A DNA stretch of 47,064 bases, from positions 1 through 47,064 of IMG/VR virus record IMGVR_UViG_3300043469_001323. One strand, 5' to 3'. This DNA is from a virus. Under the pieces are notes generated by a model. That model was given only the letters and a program-made list of their open reading frames with translations. It was not told the DNA's origin and did no database searches. A program made the translations under genes and the position numbers. Every line of letters begins with the position of its first letter. The stretch's first letter is position 1. This document shows positions 7,007 through 44,466 of the stretch, piece by piece.

Positions 7007-7037
7007 CAAAAAGAAGGGTTAATTACCCTTCTTTTTT
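7007..7037. terminator. Bidirectional terminator between structural run and clpP
   Basis: A perfect A-rich/T-rich stem with GAAGGGT / ACCCTTC at its top overlaps the clpP stop codon. T-runs on both strands let it end both converging transcripts. A weaker hairpin (ATCCGT / ACGGAT) lies just upstream near 6914-6934. Confidence 0.8.
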
Positions 7038-7699
7038 GTTTTAACGATTTCGTCAATAATACCATACTCAAGAGCTTCTTCAGCACTTAACCATAAATCA
7101 CGAGTTGCGTCGTTCATTACTTTTTCAGCTGGCTTGTCACAATATTTGCCCAATAATTCAAATAAGGTATTGTTAACTTTTTCCCACTCAATCATATTGA
7201 TACGTGCGTCTTGGATGTTTCCACCGGCACCACCTGAAGATTGATGTAACATGGTTTTTGAAAAACGAAGTGATGAACGTTTCCCTTTGGTTCCCGCCCC
7301 TAACAATACTGAACCCATAGAAGCTGCCATACCAGTATTTACTGTTCTGATATCACAAGAAATGTATTCCATAACATCTACCATAGATAAACCTGATTTA
7401 ACACTTCCTCCGGGAGAATCAATATGCATTGTAATATCTGTTTTATCTGTTGAATCCAAGAACATTAGCTGAGCTTGAACAATTGTTGACATGTGGTCGT
7501 TAACAGGACCCGCAACCCACAATAGACGGTCTCTCATTAATCGGGAAAAAATATCCATTTGTGTTACCCTCATTTCTCTTTCTTCCAAAATGTAAGGGGT
7601 CATTGATGACTCAATGTGTTGGGCAAAGTAATCCAAATGTGATGATGGTTTACCTAAATGTTTTGTGTAGTACGATTGAAATTCTTGTCCGTAATTCAT
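7019..7699 (-). CDS. clpP: ATP-dependent Clp protease proteolytic subunit
   Basis: The protein has 226 residues and the ClpP fold signature. The catalytic Ser127 lies in MAASMG, His152 in MLHQSSGG and Asp201 in TRDLWLSAEEA; HIDSPGGSV is the conserved oxyanion-strand region. All three triad residues are present, so the enzyme should be active. The N-terminus carries about 30 extra residues before the usual ClpP start. ClpP forms tetradecamers that degrade substrates fed by a Clp ATPase. The same window encodes a ClpC-type ATPase with a ClpP-docking loop (29402-31417), so a phage-made ClpCP is plausible; docking to host Clp ATPases is the alternative. A near-consensus -7 box (TACCTTTA) lies about 20 nt upstream of the start. 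Confidence 0.95.
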   Translation of the reverse strand: MNYGQEFQSYYTKHLGKPSSHLDYFAQHIESSMTPYILEEREMRVTQMDIFSRLMRDRLLWVAGPVNDHMSTIVQAQLMFLDSTDKTDITMHIDSPGGSVKSGLSMVDVMEYISCDIRTVNTGMAASMGSVLLGAGTKGKRSSLRFSKTMLHQSSGGAGGNIQDARINMIEWEKVNNTLFELLGKYCDKPAEKVMNDATRDLWLSAEEALEYGIIDEIVKTKKKGN

Positions 7700-14332: not shown

Positions 14333-14438
14333 AGTCAGGTGGCGGAATTGGTAAGACGCTAAAATAATGGGTGGACAGCGTGCCATTGGGGTAGAACCAA
14401 GAAAGTTACGCATACAGGTTCGAATCCTGTCCTGACTA
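14333..14438 (+). ncRNA. tRNA-like element B (Leu-type ends, long aberrant middle)
   Basis: The 5' part is a canonical tRNA-Leu beginning: AGTCAGG, TG, then D-arm GCGG...CGC. The 3' part has T-arm ACAGG-TTCGAAT-CCTGT and CCTGACT-A. Between them lie about 55 nt with no standard anticodon arm; AATGG / CCATT and TTGG / CCAA hairpins are possible. The length of 106 nt exceeds a tRNA-Leu. Confidence 0.5.
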
Positions 14439-25470: not shown

Positions 25471-25474
25471 AGTG

Positions 25475-25853
25475 TGGAGGTAGAGGTTTCGAAACCTCGT
25501 CCTGCATACACTACCTATTTAGGACTACACGCTTAGGATAACATTTTCTAATGTTCCAAAATATTCAGTTTGTTCTTCACCATCGTAAACTAATAACCAA
25601 TGGACGACTCAATTTAAGGTTCAGTCATTTTTCCACCTTTGTAAAAACTTCTGTTGCTAGGTTAATGTTCACCGACCCCTTGGTTGTTCCCTATCTTAGA
25701 TAGTAACAACAGCTTCTTCTTTAGTAAGACCTAAAGCCGCAAGCTTAGCAAAAGTATTGCCATTTAATTGTTTGAATCAGTTGATAACGAAGTTAATTCA
25801 GCTCCGACGTGCCCCAAATAACCAGATATACCAGTCAATTCCATTTTACCCCC
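25475..25853 (-). ncRNA. ssrA: tmRNA (SsrA RNA), phage-encoded
   Basis: tmRNA frees stalled ribosomes and tags the unfinished protein. The 379-nt RNA has a 7-bp acceptor stem, GGGGGTA / TACCTCC, whose third pair is G-U, the alanyl-tRNA synthetase identity element, with discriminator A. The 5' region has GGAATTGAC, the tmRNA D-loop signature, and GGGGCACGTCGGAG. The 3' region has TAAGCGTGTAG and GGACGAGG before a T-arm GAGGT-TTCGAA-ACCTC, whose loop is one base shorter than usual. The tag frame starts at GGC (25761-25759) and runs 21 codons to a UAA. That stop lies in the loop of a hairpin, CTATC-TAA-GATAG, extended by GTTGTT / AACAAC. Normal tags are about 8-15 residues and end in ALAA. SmpB is not seen in the window, so the host protein is presumably used. 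Confidence 0.93.
25696..25761 (-). other. tmRNA tag reading frame, extended
   Basis: The frame codes GNTFAKLAALG, then LTKEEAVVTI, and stops. The first nine residues would be a normal Bacteroidota-like tag ending in LAA. One base fewer after GCGGCT would create a stop (TAG) right there, but the actual sequence reads on. The tag would thus end in a hydrophobic AVVTI instead of LAA. Confidence 0.8.
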
Positions 25854-25880
25854 AAATATATTCTTCAAAGAACATTAAAA

Positions 25881-25954
25881 ATCACTTTCACCCCTGTATA
25901 ACTTTCGTTGGATGATTAAGGTCATCCCTAACTATTAAGGGAGTCACCCGTGAT
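25881..25954 (-). ncRNA. Structured 5' leader of the tmRNA precursor
   Basis: The 74 nt begin with ATCAC and end with GTGAT, enclosing three hairpins: CCCT / AGGG, GGATGA / TCATCC and AAC-GAAA-GTT. The arrangement is a multibranch cloverleaf but not a tRNA (no anticodon or T-loop). It lies between the tmRNA promoter and the mature 5' end. It may be a processing signal or a cis-regulatory element. Confidence 0.4.
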
Positions 25955-29401: not shown

Positions 29402-31417
29402 TTATCGTCCTTTCTTTTGAATAACAACTTTTTCATCAACAACTTTAATTAGATAAGATTTACCCTCAATCATTTTACCAGTCAACACTTCTTCGGACAA
29501 TAGGTCTTCAACTTTATCTTGGATTGCTCTTTTCAATGGACGAGCCCCGTATAATTCATCAAATCCAATCTTTGATAGATATTCCACCAATGATTCATCA
29601 TAAGTGATGTTGTATTTCATGTCCACAAGACGAGCCACCAATTTCTTCAATTCAATGTCTGTAATCTTCTTAATATCTTCTTGAGATAATGAGTTGAATA
29701 CGATTGTATCATCAATACGGTTTAAGAACTCAGGAGAGAAGAAATTCTTCATTTCTTTCATCAACATTTGTTTCTTTGCTTCCTCATTACCGTATGAATT
29801 AGAAGAGAAACCAATACCTGTTCCAAAGTCCTGTAGTTTTTTAACACCCAAGTTTGAAGTCAAGATAATCAAGGTATTCTTGAAGTTAATCTTGCGACCC
29901 AAACTATCCGTAACATGACCATCATCCAAGATTTGAAGTAAAATGGTGAACACATCTTTATGAGCCTTTTCAACCTCGTCAAACAAGATTACAGAATACG
30001 GTTTGTTTTTAACTTTTTCAGTTAACAATCCACCTTCTTCATATCCAACATAACCTGGAGGAGCTCCGACCAATTTAGATATGGTATGTTTTTCTTGATA
30101 TTCAGACATATCCACACGAATAAGTGAATCTTCAGAACCAAACATTTCTTTAGCCAATTGTTTGGCTAAATAGGTCTTACCAACACCTGTTGAACCCAAG
30201 AATACGAATGAACCAATTGGACGATTTGGGTCTTTGATACCTAAACGATTTCGTTTGATAGATTTTGCAATCTTGACAACCGCATTGTCTTGACCGATAA
30301 CTTTACCAATCAAATTCTTATCTAAATCCAACAACGCCTTGGTATCATCAACACTCATCTTACTCACAGGAATCTTGGTCATGTTTGATACAACATCATA
30401 AACATGTTCCAACAAGATTGTTTGTTTTTCTTTAGACAATTGTTCTTCAAACTTAACTTTTTCTTGGTCAAGTTTTGTTAACAATTTTTTCTCTTTATCA
30501 CGAAGTTCTGCCGCTTGTTCGTAGTTTTGTTTTTTAACAACATCAATTTTTTGTTGTTTGATTTCAGCCGCCTTTTTCTTAAGGTCTTCAATGATATCAG
30601 GAACTTTAAGGTCGGTTTGCATTCTTGCACCAACTTCATCCAAGATGTCAAATGCTTTATCAGGAAACTCACGGTCAGTGATATATCGGTCCGCCAACTT
30701 AACGCAAGTTTCGATAACCTCATCACTATAATTTACCTTATGGAAATTTTCGTATTTGTCACGAACATTTTTAAGGATTTGTATTGTTTCAGCAACTGAT
30801 GATGGCTCAACAATTACTTTTTGGAATCTACGCTCCAATGCTCCGTCTTTTTCAATGTTCTTACGGAACTCATCTAATGTGGTTGCCCCAATACATTGAA
30901 GTTCTCCACGAGAAAGTGCTGGTTTGAAAATGTTGGAACCATCCATTGAACCTGAAGAATTACCTGAACCAACCAATGTGTGAATCTCATCAATAAACAC
31001 AATGATGTTAGGGTTTTCTTGAAGTTCTTCAATAATGACTTTCATTCTTTCTTCAAATTGTCCACGGTATTTTGTACCAGCAACTACTGAAGTTAAGTCA
31101 AGATTAACAATTCGTTTGTCAATCAAATTACGAGGACACTCACCATTTACAATCTTAATTGCCAAACCTTCAACCAGTGCGGTTTTACCACAACCAGGTT
31201 CACCAATAATGATTGGATTATTTTTCTTTCTACGAGAAAGGATTTGAGCAATCCTCAAAATCTCACGGTCACGACCAATAACTGGGTCAAGTTTACCTGC
31301 CTCTGCAAGTTTATTCAAATCTCTACTGAAATTGTCCAATACGGGTGTATTTGAATCTGCAGTTGATTTTGATTTTTTACTCATCATTTTGTCGTCATCA
31401 TCCATTAAATCATTCAT
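29402..31417 (-). CDS. clpC: ClpC-like AAA+ unfoldase lacking the N-domain
   Basis: The protein has 671 residues from the chosen start [12 protein letters not shown]; an ATG 12 codons upstream is possible. Two AAA+ modules are complete. D1 has Walker A GEPGCGKT (72-79) and Walker B FIDEIHTL (Asp143-Glu144). D2 has Walker A GSTGVGKT (408-415), the pore loop [13 protein letters not shown] and Walker [12 protein letters not shown] short M-domain (about 280-330) carries a UVR-like [14 protein letters not shown]. The D2 loop FGTGIGF (IGF at 535-537) is the ClpP-docking signature, absent from ClpB, so this is a protease-type unfoldase. The usual N-domain of about 140 residues, which binds adaptors, is replaced by about 30 polar residues. 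It is divergent from the UVR-motif gene. Confidence 0.92.
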
Positions 31418-31620
31418 ATGTTTTATAATTTTTGTTTTACAAAGTAATATCAAATTTCGTTCGTTTCCAAATATTTTGACAAATTGTCATAAATATTTTT
31501 TTTATATGTCATAATGTCATGATTATATTTTTTTATCTGAAAATTTGACCTATATTTATCAAAGGAATAAAATTTGATAGTGTAAAGGTACACAATAAAT
31601 TTTAAAAAACAAAAAAAAAC

Positions 31621-32055
31621 ATGTTTAGAAGAAGAAAAAAATTTAACGACATCTTTGATGATTTTGACGCAATCTTTAGTCAATTTGATGATTTGTTTGG
31701 TGGAATACCAAGTAATGTCGAATCTGAATCAGGAACCGATGAATTAGGTGATTGGACAAAAGAAACTTATAGATTACCTGACGGAAGAATTTTGATTACC
31801 AACTTTATTAGAACTAATAGCTCTCATGGGTCTAACCAAAGTTCAGGTATAACCTCATTAAAGAAAAAACTTCAACTTGCAATTGAAGAAGAAAACTTTG
31901 AAGATGCGGTAAAACTCAGAGATGAAATTAAAAACTATGAATCAAACCAAGATTTAATCAACAAACTTGAAACGGAACTAAAAAAATCAATTGAAGAAGA
32001 AAACTTTGAAAAATCAATTGAAATACGAGACCAAATCAAAAAATTAAAATCTTAA
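31621..32055 (+). CDS. Double-UVR-motif protein, candidate Clp adaptor
   Basis: The protein has 144 residues. The N-terminal 30 residues are basic, then rich in Phe and Asp (DDFDAIFSQFDDLFGG). A small domain (about 45-70, DWTKETYRLPDGRILITN) follows. The C-terminal half has two UVR motifs: LKKKLQLAIEEENFEDAVKL at about 80-106 and LKKSIEEENFEKSIEIRDQI at about 116-143. UVR motifs mediate protein contacts in UvrB, UvrC, the ClpC M-domain and the ClpC regulator McsA. It is divergent from the clpC-like gene across a 203-nt AT-rich intergenic region, so an adaptor or activator role is a reasonable inference. It lacks the zinc-binding CxxC pairs of McsA. Confidence 0.8.
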   Translation: MFRRRKKFNDIFDDFDAIFSQFDDLFGGIPSNVESESGTDELGDWTKETYRLPDGRILITNFIRTNSSHGSNQSSGITSLKKKLQLAIEEENFEDAVKLRDEIKNYESNQDLINKLETELKKSIEEENFEKSIEIRDQIKKLKS

Positions 32056-40223: not shown

Positions 40224-43031
40224 ATGAGTGAACAACAAAATAATATGACAGTATGGCAGAGGTTGTCCAAAACATTTGGACCAAACTCTTTATTAAAACA
40301 AGATTATCCAACTTTTAAGTTTGATAAGAAAGAGCTTTTGCGCACTCCAAATCGTGATGATTACGAAAGAGAAAAACTCCAAGCACAACAAACATTTTAT
40401 TTAACAAATCAATGGGCTAAGGTTGAAAATAATCTCTATTCACAAGCGATTTATTATGAACCATCAAGATTATCTGCTCAATATGATTACGAAAGTATGG
40501 AATATTGCATTGCAGGAGATACTAAAATAGCAACCCCTAATGGGTTTATGACCATTAAAGAACTATCTGATAAAGGTAGAGATTATGAATTTATAACTTA
40601 TTCATACGACCATAATACAAAACAAGTTGTTCCTGCAATGGCTCGTAATGCCCATTATACTCGTGATGAAATGACATATAAAGTTAATTTTGATGACGGA
40701 ACATTTATTATAGCTACTTGGGAACATCAATTAATGAAAAGAGATGGGTCATTTGAAAGAGTTATGAATCTAAAGGAAGGTGACTCTATGATGCCATTTT
40801 ATCGTAAATCTTTTTACAACAACCAAAAATATAATTGGGTGTATACTTGTAATTCAAATGTAGGTCATAAAGGTTGGATATCTGAACATAATTTAATTTC
40901 TGAATGGTTTTATAATACTAAAATAAATAAAGACCAAGAAGTTCATCATATTGATTTTAATGGTAAAAATAATTTACCTGAAAATCTTAGTATTATGAAT
41001 ATTTCAGAACATAGGGCGTATCATGCCAGACTAAATAATGAGAAGTTATGGTCAAACCCTGAATATAGATTAAAGATGTCTGAAGTTGCAAAACGAAAAG
41101 GTAAAATGACTTGGGACGGTAATCGTTCTGGGGAAAAAAACCCTGCATATTTTTCAATACCCTTTGATGATATTATTGAAACCGCTCGTATTGAAAAATC
41201 TTTAAAGAAAACAGCTTTAAAATTAGGTGTTTCTTATAGAAAACTACAACGAGATATAAATAATTCAGGATATAAAGATTGGTCAACATTTCTTGATGCT
41301 TATGGTATTCAAAAATCGGTTTACTCAACGGCAAGAGGTAAGGGAGATAAATTAATGTTAAACCATAAAATAGTTTCAATTGAACCTAATGGAGTTATTC
41401 CTGTGTATGATTTAACTGTGCCAGGGTATAAAAATTTCGCAACAGATACTATTTTTTCTCATAATACTCCTGAGATTTCGGCAGCGCTGGACATTTACTC
41501 TGAAGAATCTACAACAACCAATGAAGACGGATTTATTCTTCAAATTTATTCTGAATCAAAGCGTATTAAATCAGTATTAGCAGATTTATTTAACAATAAT
41601 TTAGATATCAATACCAACTTACCTATGTGGACAAGAAACACATGTAAGTATGGTGACAATTTTGTTTACCTTAAATTAGACCCCGAAAAGGGGATTATCG
41701 GTTGTCAACAATTACCAACAATTGAAATTGAAAGACATGAGGTTGGAGTTAGTGCAAAAATTACTGTTGATATTACACAAGAAAAAGATGAGAACAAAAA
41801 GGCTCTTCACTTTACTTGGAAAAATAGAAACATGGAGTTCCAATCATGGGAAATTGCTCACTTTAGATTATTAGGTGATGATAGAAAACTACCTTACGGT
41901 ACTTCTATGTTGGAGAAAGCAAGACGTATTTGGAAACAATTATTATTGTGTGAAGATGCAATGTTAATTTATCGTACGTCACGAGCTCCTGAAAGAAAAT
42001 TATTTAAGGTATTTGTGGGTAATATGAATGACGATGATGTTGAAGCATATGTAAACCGAGTAGCCAATAAGTTCAAAAGAGAACAAATTGTGGATGCAAA
42101 AACAGGTAATGTGGACATGAGATTCAACCAAATGGCTGTCGACCAAGATTATTTTATTCCCGTTCGTGACCCATCAGCTCCAGACCCAATTTCAACATTA
42201 CCGGGTGCAACTAACTTATCAGAGATTGCAGATATTGAATATATTCAAAAGAAATTATTAACGGCTCTTCGTGTTCCTAAAGCGTTTTTAGGGTTTGAAG
42301 AAGTTGTTGGTGACGGTAAAAACTTATCATTACAAGATATCCGTTTTGCTCGTACAATCAACAGAATACAAAAAAGTATGATTGCCGAACTTAATAAGAT
42401 TGCAATTGTTCATTTATTCTTATTAGGTTTTGAGGATGAATTACAAAACTTTACATTGGGGTTATCTAACCCATCTACACAAGCTGATTTATTAAAAATT
42501 GATGTTTGGAAAGAAAAAGTTTTATTATATAAAGATTTAGTTTCTGACCCAGGAAACGGTATTCAACCAACATCATCGACATGGGCTAAAAAACATATCT
42601 TTGGATGGTCTGATGAAGAAATCAGATTGGATTTACAACAACAAAGAATTGAAAGAGCTGTTGGTGAAGAACTTAAATCAACTCCTACAGTTATTACTAA
42701 ATCAGGGTTGTTTGATAACATTGACAAACTATATAGTAATAAATCAGGAGGAACTGAAACTGTATCCACAACAACACCTACAGGTGGTGAAGAATCATTT
42801 GGAGGATTTGGGGCTCCGCCATCAGGAGGAGAACCCGAAGTAGGAGGAGAAGTTCCGCCACCAGCACCTGCGGGAGGTGAATCCGAGGTTACTCCGGAAT
42901 CAAGAATGAAGAACATGAATTTATTGGTGGAAAGTAACCTATTAGAAGGTTCAAAATTCTTAGATTTTGGTCAGGGTCAAGAATCTTTAGGAGAAATTTC
43001 AAAAGAATTGGATAAGTTATTAAATTCCTAA
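40224..43031 (+). CDS. Portal protein, gp20-like, interrupted by an intein
   Basis: The precursor has 935 residues; removal of the intein (residues 95-414) leaves 615, a normal size for a gp20-type portal. The extein junction reads YESMEY followed by TPEISAALDIYSEES, a conserved portal segment. Further portal motifs are KYGDNFVYLKLDPEKG, APERKLFKVFVGNM, and LLTALRVPKAFLGFEE followed by RFARTINRIQKSMIAELNKI. The C-terminal 100 residues are Gly/Pro/Glu-rich. The portal forms the dodecameric DNA entry ring at one head vertex. Function depends on protein splicing. Confidence 0.95.
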   Translation: MSEQQNNMTVWQRLSKTFGPNSLLKQDYPTFKFDKKELLRTPNRDDYEREKLQAQQTFYLTNQWAKVENNLYSQAIYYEPSRLSAQYDYESMEYCIAGDTKIATPNGFMTIKELSDKGRDYEFITYSYDHNTKQVVPAMARNAHYTRDEMTYKVNFDDGTFIIATWEHQLMKRDGSFERVMNLKEGDSMMPFYRKSFYNNQKYNWVYTCNSNVGHKGWISEHNLISEWFYNTKINKDQEVHHIDFNGKNNLPENLSIMNISEHRAYHARLNNEKLWSNPEYRLKMSEVAKRKGKMTWDGNRSGEKNPAYFSIPFDDIIETARIEKSLKKTALKLGVSYRKLQRDINNSGYKDWSTFLDAYGIQKSVYSTARGKGDKLMLNHKIVSIEPNGVIPVYDLTVPGYKNFATDTIFSHNTPEISAALDIYSEESTTTNEDGFILQIYSESKRIKSVLADLFNNNLDINTNLPMWTRNTCKYGDNFVYLKLDPEKGIIGCQQLPTIEIERHEVGVSAKITVDITQEKDENKKALHFTWKNRNMEFQSWEIAHFRLLGDDRKLPYGTSMLEKARRIWKQLLLCEDAMLIYRTSRAPERKLFKVFVGNMNDDDVEAYVNRVANKFKREQIVDAKTGNVDMRFNQMAVDQDYFIPVRDPSAPDPISTLPGATNLSEIADIEYIQKKLLTALRVPKAFLGFEEVVGDGKNLSLQDIRFARTINRIQKSMIAELNKIAIVHLFLLGFEDELQNFTLGLSNPSTQADLLKIDVWKEKVLLYKDLVSDPGNGIQPTSSTWAKKHIFGWSDEEIRLDLQQQRIERAVGEELKSTPTVITKSGLFDNIDKLYSNKSGGTETVSTTTPTGGEESFGGFGAPPSGGEPEVGGEVPPPAPAGGESEVTPESRMKNMNLLVESNLLEGSKFLDFGQGQESLGEISKELDKLLNS
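40506..41465 (+). other. Intein with HNH endonuclease in the portal gene
   Basis: The intein has 320 residues. Splicing motifs: Cys95 in CIAGDTKIATPNG (block A), GTFIIATWEHQLM with Thr165 and His168 (block B), PVYDLTVPGYKNFAT (block F), and FSHN ending in His413-Asn414 (block G). The +1 residue is Thr415. The middle has an HNH homing endonuclease (EVHHIDFNGKNNLPENLSIM, His241-His242) and a DNA-binding helix-turn-helix-like tail (KKTALKLGVSYRKLQRDI). All residues for splicing appear intact. Confidence 0.95.
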
Positions 43032-43055: not shown

Positions 43056-43754
43056 ATGACTTTCGGAAAAATTAAATCCCTAATTGAAAACAATCTTATC
43101 GAATCCTACAAAGATGAAAAGGAATTCAAAAAATTGTTAAAAGAATTCAAACACAATGTTTTGGAGAATAAAACTATGTCAAAACTTTATTCTTTATACG
43201 ACCAATTGTGTACACCTCAAGGACTAAACGAATCCGACGCTAAAGATTTTTTAGAAGAAGGTATTCATTTAATTCAAAAATTATTACCAACAATTAAACC
43301 ACCAAAATCATTATCGGAAAATGTTGTAAACAAATATTCGGATATTGATTCGTTAGTGTATACAAACAAATTGAATTTATTGGAAAGAGTAAATTCTAAA
43401 AAGAATATTACAAGTGTGTTAACTTCAACAAAGGAACCTATCAAAGAATCTATTCAAATTCCTTTGAAAACAATGGTTAGTATTGCAAATCAAAATTTAA
43501 ACAAATATGTTGAAGGTCTTGATGAGTCATCAAAAAAAGAATTTTTCCAATTGATTTCTGAAGATTCAAAATCTTTGGAAGATAAGTTTGAAACAATTCG
43601 TGAAAGTGCAATCAACAAACTTAACATCATCTTAGAAAAAGAAGAAGAGTTTGAATTGAGAACAAAATTGTCTGAGACAATTGATAGATTAAAGGTTGAA
43701 AAGTTTGACCAATTGAATTTTCTAAAATTAAAAAGTTTAGAAGAATCAATCTAA
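43056..43754 (+). CDS. Hypothetical helical protein between portal and protease
   Basis: The protein has 232 residues, almost entirely helical and charged (FKKLLKEFKHNVLENKTM, LEKEEEFELRTKLSETIDRL). A helical protein between gp20 and gp21 is a common position in marine T4-like phages, probably a head-assembly factor. No family is named. Its 3' end overlaps the convergent bS21 gene by 9 nt. Confidence 0.7.
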   Translation: MTFGKIKSLIENNLIESYKDEKEFKKLLKEFKHNVLENKTMSKLYSLYDQLCTPQGLNESDAKDFLEEGIHLIQKLLPTIKPPKSLSENVVNKYSDIDSLVYTNKLNLLERVNSKKNITSVLTSTKEPIKESIQIPLKTMVSIANQNLNKYVEGLDESSKKEFFQLISEDSKSLEDKFETIRESAINKLNIILEKEEEFELRTKLSETIDRLKVEKFDQLNFLKLKSLEESI

Positions 43755-43934
43755 AGAACTTTTAACTTTTTGAACATACGTAGATTTTAATATTTCATCT
43801 CTTCGTACTACAGATTTTTTCACAAATTCTTTTCGTTCAAATAAAATTTTATTTTGTTTGGTCTTGATAACTTTAGATTTTAAGGTTTTCAGAGCCTTTT
43901 CTATTCCGTCTTTTTTTACGTCTACTATTAGCAT
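43746..43934 (-). CDS. rpsU: Ribosomal protein bS21
   Basis: The protein has 62 residues from the ATG giving MLIVDVKKDGIEKALKTLKS; codons upstream of this ATG are open but look non-coding. The pattern of an N-terminal beta strand, IEKALKTLK, the basic helix ILFERKEFVKKSVVRRDEIL and a Lys-rich end is that of bS21 at its normal length. bS21 sits on the 30S subunit near the anti-Shine-Dalgarno sequence. In Flavobacteria it helps hide that sequence (established knowledge). Phage copies are thought to exchange with the host protein and bias translation. It is the only leftward gene in the head operon and lies antisense to the end of the helical protein gene. Confidence 0.88.
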   Translation of the reverse strand: MLIVDVKKDGIEKALKTLKSKVIKTKQNKILFERKEFVKKSVVRRDEILKSTYVQKVKSSLD

Positions 43935-44034
43935 ATTATTACAAATATCGCGATTTATTAAAAAATTTTTGACTATGGGGTTTTTTTGTACTATCTTTTT
44001 ACAAAGAAATAAACCGTGACAATAATGAAATGTA

Positions 44035-44466
44035 ATGAAAAAAGGAAAAAGTGTAAAGTTAAATCTGTATAGTCCAATCAAATCTGTATATGGTACTGTG
44101 GATTCAAAAAATTTAAAATCGTTATACATAAACATTCAATCATGGGTTTCCCCAAAATTTGACCACGATAATTGGAATCGTGTAGTATGTAATCTCAGCA
44201 GAGAAATAAAACATTCAGTATTCAATTCTATTGACGCTGAACTATTCAAAGAACAAAGTATTGTTGATTTGGATTTAAGAACAAGTGGTATATCACATGG
44301 AAAAAAATCATTTTTTAACTTGGAAGTTAACTTGTACACTACAAAAGAATTTGACTTCAAATCCCCCGAACTCAAAGAATCTGTAAAAAAAATAATAAGA
44401 AATATTGTAAGAGATAATGTAATCGAAAACAAATACTTTGACTTTTCAATTTCCAAAAGTAAATAA
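44035..44466 (+). CDS. Hypothetical protein, 143 aa
   Basis: It starts MKKGKSVKLNLYSPIKSVYG. A beta-rich N-terminus is followed by LSREIKHSVFNSIDAELF and an alternating beta C-terminal part ending FDFSISKSK. Proteins of this size and pattern occur between portal and prohead protease in T4-like phages. The function is unknown. Confidence 0.7.
   Translation: MKKGKSVKLNLYSPIKSVYGTVDSKNLKSLYINIQSWVSPKFDHDNWNRVVCNLSREIKHSVFNSIDAELFKEQSIVDLDLRTSGISHGKKSFFNLEVNLYTTKEFDFKSPELKESVKKIIRNIVRDNVIENKYFDFSISKSK

Follow-up and report, generated by a model that had tools for sequence, protein, structure and literature searches.

What becomes of unfinished proteins in a cell infected by a phage that encodes a tmRNA whose tag runs past the usual Leu-Ala-Ala? 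The question is raised by IMG/VR record IMGVR_UViG_3300043469_001323, a 47-kb fragment that carries genes for terminase, portal and S77 prohead protease together with nine tRNAs (ARAGORN) and that we analyzed over its full 47,064 nucleotides (the window). The original prediction, made from the letters alone, described a minus-strand tmRNA whose tag passes through AKLAA and ends in AVVTI, and proposed that such an end could send rescued proteins to a phage ClpCP or spare them from host degradation. Two further elements of the window stand apart from this locus. The portal protein (40224–43031, plus strand, 935 aa) matches HNH endonuclease families in its N-terminal part, a pattern that would suit fusion with an HNH domain or an intein-like insert, and a 106-base segment at 14333–14438 (plus strand) is matched as a tRNA by Rfam (35.4 bits) without an ARAGORN call and is possibly a tRNA with an insert.

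The RNA gene and the signal that follows it lie as follows:

25472..25853, minus strand: one-piece tmRNA gene (ssrA), identified with Rfam RF00023 and by homologues in 68 further phage records.
25439..25464, minus strand: intrinsic terminator 3′ of the tmRNA; a similar hairpin and U-tract occur in most relatives inspected.

The covariance-model scan expected to place a tmRNA at 25475–25853 on the minus strand did so almost to the base: RF00023 matched 25853–25472 (minus) with 80.2 bits (Rfam; cut-off 47) over model positions 1–374, its full length. All seven acceptor-stem pairs form and G3–U70 is present. The assertion that the RNA has every tmRNA hallmark held for these features and needs a small correction at two others, namely the T-loop, in which UUCGA is present and the loop is read as 6 bases (UUCGAA), one short of the usual 7, and the 3′ end, which is ACAC and not ACCA. 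The close relatives L189 and L190 have a loop of 7 bases. The missing base might reduce the activity of the window tmRNA. The short T-loop (window positions 25472–25500) occurs in the window's subclade, and in other relatives (L045, L072) GGCGGUA or GGCGGAA replaces UUCGA in an otherwise intact tmRNA. Upstream of the gene, ~ 100 bases (25854–25950, minus) are kept in a subset of relatives; Rfam placed this conserved block in no family and returned a single sub-threshold chance match. Promoter-like TAnnTTTG boxes, typical of Bacteroidota, precede the tmRNA in many relatives.

The tag is read from a GGC resume codon and ends within a hairpin:

25762..25766, minus strand: resume-frame element UAAAU directly 5′ of GGC, with A at −4, recognized by conservation of A(−4).
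25696..25761, minus strand: tag frame of 21 codons plus UAA, GNTFAKLAALGLTKEEAVVTI, from translation, frame conservation and the homologous 21-codon frame that ARAGORN reports in 15 relatives.
25683..25710, minus strand: predicted helix 5 hairpin with the stop in its apical triloop, from hairpin prediction and 40 of 50 distinct relatives.

Translation of 25761–25696 gives GNTFAKLAALGLTKEEAVVTI followed by UAA, which reproduces the proposed 21-codon tag through AKLAA to AVVTI. The remaining two frames in the window yield AILLLSLRL and a stop, or stop at once, and the U(−5)A(−4) context that phage and host tmRNAs share precedes the GGC frame alone. An A occupies position −4, counted from the resume codon, in every tmRNA compared (69/69 phage, 32/32 host), consistent with the role of A86 in setting the resume codon of E. 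coli tmRNA (PMC2481249). We find it scarcely credible that the frame is misread, that is, that the true tag is shorter or lies in another frame (resuming at GCA, for example, to give AILLLSLRL) and that the 21 codons are open by chance. The Rfam alignment does set the consensus GCA resume codon against a GCA one base on, but the A(−4), U/C(−5) context and the GGC codon are common to phages and hosts, the other frames hold stops in 32/36 and 34/36 tag variants, and it is the 21-codon frame that ARAGORN calls in the 15 relatives.

The 3′ part of the frame enters the predicted hairpin GUUGUUACUAUC-UAA-GAUAGGGAACAAC (25710–25683), whose three-base loop is the UAA itself; for 40/50 distinct relatives, too, the best hairpin places the stop within its apical loop or at it. 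The predicted placement of the stop in a helix 5 triloop is thereby borne out. In E. coli tmRNA the tag stop is also located in helix 5. A conserved extra hairpin over codons 10–15 had been considered as well; its register varies among subgroups and the claim was dropped. The same tag recurs in further contigs despite flanks that diverge by up to ~ 15%, which excludes a sequencing error near 25731: three more contigs (L002/L201, L003/L200, L005/L190) have the identical 66 bases, and a fourth (L004/L189) carries one synonymous change. The extension is built in, as had been proposed, and is no frame error.

No match came from DNA-level searches of a phage collection, whether a distant search with the tmRNA or a near one with the terminase region, so the relatives were drawn from IMG/VR. 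There, six contigs were retrieved with the gene adjoining the tmRNA, a tmRNA being present in four, and about 100 records were retrieved with the clpC and terminase genes. Among six records negative by Rfam, blastn found the tmRNA in four, and the other two end too near clpC. The final set comprises the window and 68 further phage tmRNAs (69 in total). ARAGORN misses 48 of these 69, the window tmRNA included, and phage tmRNA surveys based on it are therefore undercounts. Every acceptor stem in the set has seven pairs and G3–U70. The tag is 21–22 codons long in 69/69, with 33 distinct peptides, and none of the 69 phage tags ends directly after LAA, in agreement with what the original prediction expected of related tag frames. 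By this comparison, the extension is a trait of the whole phage family. It is conserved, runs into helix 5 and reaches beyond host tag ends as had been suggested; what has to be given up is that it is peculiar to the window phage, since it is shared by at least 33 tag sequences. Family tag lengths, frame conservation and the agreement with ARAGORN therefore exclude two of the refuting outcomes named in the original prediction, related tag frames that stop after LAA and a frame error.

Across 36 distinct DNA variants of the 21-codon form, K6 and G11 never change, L12 persists in 35 and a C-terminal Ala in 31, in each case by way of different codons. Compared with column shuffles, amino-acid identity gave z = 22 in the tag frame and 8 and 6 in the other frames; because relatedness inflates all three values, the evidence is the contrast between frames and not the z-values themselves. 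In the tag-frame conservation test pN/pS was 0.58 versus 0.83, a modest contrast, and was 0.65 in the added part versus 0.48 in the first nine codons. The added part is thus the more variable; Gly, Leu, Glu, Val and the final Ala are largely retained in it. As judged from these variants, the tag frame is under amino-acid-level constraint, by far the strongest of the three frames.

The conservation data bear on two other explanations. One, which we regard as possible without preferring it, is that the tmRNA works and the end of its tag is indifferent: rescue would be what the phage needs, host ClpXP, Lon or others would clear the products or the products would persist, and the extension would be tolerated drift shaped chiefly by RNA structure. 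Rescue without a proteolysis-competent tag works in many bacteria, codons 20–21 (ACU AUC) lengthen the helix-5 stem, and position 20 varies widely, with A, T, G, V, E and K all found there. Against such indifference, the extension is kept as protein, with G11, L12, E15, V19 and A21 largely maintained through different codons, and its length is constant at 21–22 codons in the 69 tmRNAs while the rest of the RNA varies. The other, that the gene is degenerating, its tRNA-like part being decayed or serving as a decoy to titrate SmpB and its tag being a relic, strikes us as very improbable. The short T-loop of the window and the GGCGGUA and GGCGGAA loops would suit it, and there is precedent for a phage element consisting of the tRNA-like domain only (DS6A) and for an inhibitory action of such molecules (PMC4131195), but the 69 intact acceptor stems, the protein-level constraint on the tag frame and the retained terminator and upstream sequence all speak for a working molecule.

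How the extended tag relates to those of the presumed hosts can be seen in its first part:

25735..25761, minus strand: codons 1–9 (GNTFAKLAA), which line up in register with entire Bacteroidota host tags (joint permutation 0.0056).

With a reading pattern that demanded GCN GCN stop, which host tags with other ends would therefore escape, tags were read in 32 of 41 Bacteroidota tmRNAs (no reading in 9); 31 of them are nine codons long and one is ten, and all stop directly after [LMV]AA. Phage codon 7 encodes [ML], codon 8 in most cases A or S and codon 9 in most cases A, in the same register as the host end, and a joint permutation over positions 2–9 reached the observed phage–host similarity in 0.56% of draws. 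The best host at the DNA level, a Cytophagaceae bacterium (L358), has GGCAATACTT and ATGGCTGCT in register with the phage tags. Because of the shared [ML][AS]A register, the permutation and the DNA shared with this host, the phage tag resembles a tag of host length extended by about 12 codons. The contrary view that the internal LAA is unrelated to an earlier tag end was withdrawn in the face of the nine-codon host tags. The literal LAA on which the original prediction dwelt is not special, because other family tags have AKMAA, NKMAL or AKMSA, among others, where the window has AKLAA. In common with Bacteroidota chromosomal tmRNAs (tags such as GENNYALAA and GNTSYAMAA), the phage RNAs are one-piece, have a UA-rich context with A(−4), a GGC resume codon and Gly as first residue, and carry [LM]AA at codons 7–9, whereas the host tags stop at codon 9 (one at 10) and the phage tags at 21–22, with Lys at position 6 and another C-terminus.

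That C-terminus varies within the family. The 33 tags end in AA (8), VA (8), GA (8), TA (2), EA (2), KA (1), VS (1) or TI (3), so that 29/33 have an -xA end and 8/33 retain -AA. The window tag, ending in -TI, is without the Leu-Ala-Ala or Ala-Ala carboxylate of an -LAA-type ssrA degron. The predicted AVVTI-type end is therefore present in the window and a minority form in the family, -VVTI being limited to 10 records including the window. E. coli ClpXP depends above all on the terminal Ala-Ala carboxylate, and KM rises when either Ala is substituted (PMC7652416). By analogy with E. coli ClpXP, most phage tag ends should be weaker host degrons, and that of the window more so, since the new end has the form -V-V-x-A in most tags and -V-V-T-I in the window. 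Many family tags may nevertheless still be legible to host ClpXP, because most keep the C-terminal Ala and 8/33 keep -AA. Alternatively, -VVTI could follow from a lengthening of the helix-5 stem (CUAUC/GAUAG).

On a tmRNA tree built without the tag, the TI end requires two changes, and near-identical tag DNA is found on two backbones; because GNVLNKMAL-type tags likewise sit on separate backbones, these sequences suggest that tag cassettes have been exchanged between phages by recombination, and tRNA-like ends similarly. Pairs with the same tag type on clearly different tmRNA backbones are L183 and L233, and the window and L222.

A changed end might alternatively shield rescued phage proteins from host ClpXP so that they keep their function, the second option of the original prediction, and we consider this unlikely. 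The ends -TI, -EA, -KA, -GA and -VA do differ from the Ala-Ala end best read by ClpX (PMC7652416), and the phage tmRNA would compete with that of the host. However, truncated proteins are seldom useful, the strong retention of a C-terminal Ala and a hydrophobic stretch suggests a degron over a shield, and the phage has its own Clp machine beside the gene:

29402..31453, minus strand: ClpC-like double-AAA unfoldase without Clp_N and with an IGF loop, probable partner of the tag; domain search and alignment to 6em8.
7019..7699, minus strand: ClpP peptidase with Ser-His-Asp triad residues, probable partner of the tag; PF00574 (190.8 bits) and alignment to 1y7o.
31621..32055, plus strand: 144-aa tandem UVR protein divergent from clpC, possible ClpC regulator; PF02151 (57.2 bits).

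Compared with 6em8, the phage ClpC has two AAA domains, an M-domain, both Walker motifs and a ClpP-binding loop (GIGFSSN), and its pore loops (KYRG, GYVG) are ordinary. A Clp_N domain was not matched in this protein, and because its alignment to the ClpC of known structure begins at ClpC residue 146, it lacks the N-domain used by adaptors. It is nearest to Flavobacteriia and other Bacteroidota (61%), which, with the TAnnTTTG boxes, agrees with the published Bacteroidota host prediction. The triad motifs of ClpP align with 1y7o as GMAASMG, MLHQ and TRDLW; ClpP was found in all searched records of at least 66 kb but one (G002, 69 kb) and in all of at least 99 kb. The tandem UVR protein is the divergent neighbor of clpC in 36/53 relatives and weakly matches the end of an McsA model; it is without Cys motifs and could be an McsA-like regulator of ClpC. 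SmpB was found neither in the window nor in 18/19 other IMG/VR records of the set, and a 309-kb relative (G033, L258) encodes its own (161 bits).

Among clpC-bearing phages, to which the linkage applies because clpC was the bait for most records, 69 of 80 clpC loci have the tmRNA, always on the same strand and 2.1–5.7 kb downstream of clpC. In the remaining 11 the sequence ends < 3.7 kb beyond clpC, and no locus without tmRNA was found among clpC loci with ≥ 7 kb of downstream sequence. This fixed linkage favors, without proving, delivery of the tag to phage ClpCP.

Our preferred reading, held with middling confidence, is that a working phage tmRNA re-labels rescued proteins and that these are handed mainly to phage ClpC and ClpP, the routing being the part that we infer. 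The phage tmRNA, with an SmpB that would normally be the host's, would enter stalled ribosomes of the infected Bacteroidota cell and add the Ala charged on its tRNA-like part plus the 21-residue peptide in place of the 9-residue host tag G[EN]xxYA[LM]AA. The host start would be retained: a context with UAA, GGC as the resume codon, and nine codons that resemble those of hosts. About 12 codons would follow, and because the last of these form the 5′ strand of helix 5, translation would still stop at the usual structural position. The changed C-terminus would make a poor host ClpXP degron and divert the product from the host -LAA route, rescued proteins would go mainly to the N-domain-less phage ClpC with ClpP, and the fate of unfinished proteins during infection would come under phage control. 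A bolder form of this proposal, which we put forward tentatively and with more doubt than belief, is a private quality-control channel: phage ClpC/ClpP would prefer the tmRNA-written degron, host ClpXP would read it poorly, and disposal would shift from host to phage, with the -VVTI lineage as the extreme.

Phage tmRNAs have rarely been explained, and here a large coherent family of freshwater phages offers a long conserved tag with a measurable departure from the host degron. In these large Bacteroidota viruses, a tag more than twice the bacterial length, with a mostly different end and a gene close to that of the phage's own unfoldase, suggests a disposal route of its own for unfinished proteins. 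Phage tmRNAs, long tags and non-LAA ends were each already known or were met here in other phages; what is new is a coherent phage family whose tags extend beyond the point where host tags end, whose tmRNA has a fixed linkage to clpC and which the usual finder sees poorly. Like this family, Bacillus phage G and the mycobacteriophages Bxz1, Catera and others carry a complete tmRNA on a large phage genome (PMC4131195), and the phage G tag, read as AKLNITNNELQVA, ends in -VA as some family tags do. The tags of those other phages are unrelated in sequence, however, and clpC linkage is not described in the cited literature on them. The huge phage LR756508 (484 kb; L259, L262) has a tmRNA with a 36-residue tag ending in -AAV and a separate ~ 112-base element that resembles a lone tRNA-like domain. 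Freshwater-lake Bacteroidetes phages that encode bS21 have 293–331-kb genomes with Clp protease genes; their tRNAs were predicted by tRNAscan-SE, and the text makes no mention of tmRNA (PMC9723584). The window has a like layout, with terL, portal, S77 prohead protease and a weak bS21 match on the reverse strand (43746–44135, minus; 26.0 bits, cut-off 27) that lies between portal and prohead protease as in the published phages. A cellular counterpart is the ssrA/mf-Lon system of Mesoplasma florum, in which, by the account of Gur and Sauer (2008) given in PMC8138137, a divergent tag of unusual length is matched to another AAA+ protease. Mesoplasma in that account relies on Lon and is without ClpXP, whereas the window belongs to a phage that brings its own ClpC and ClpP beside an intact host system.
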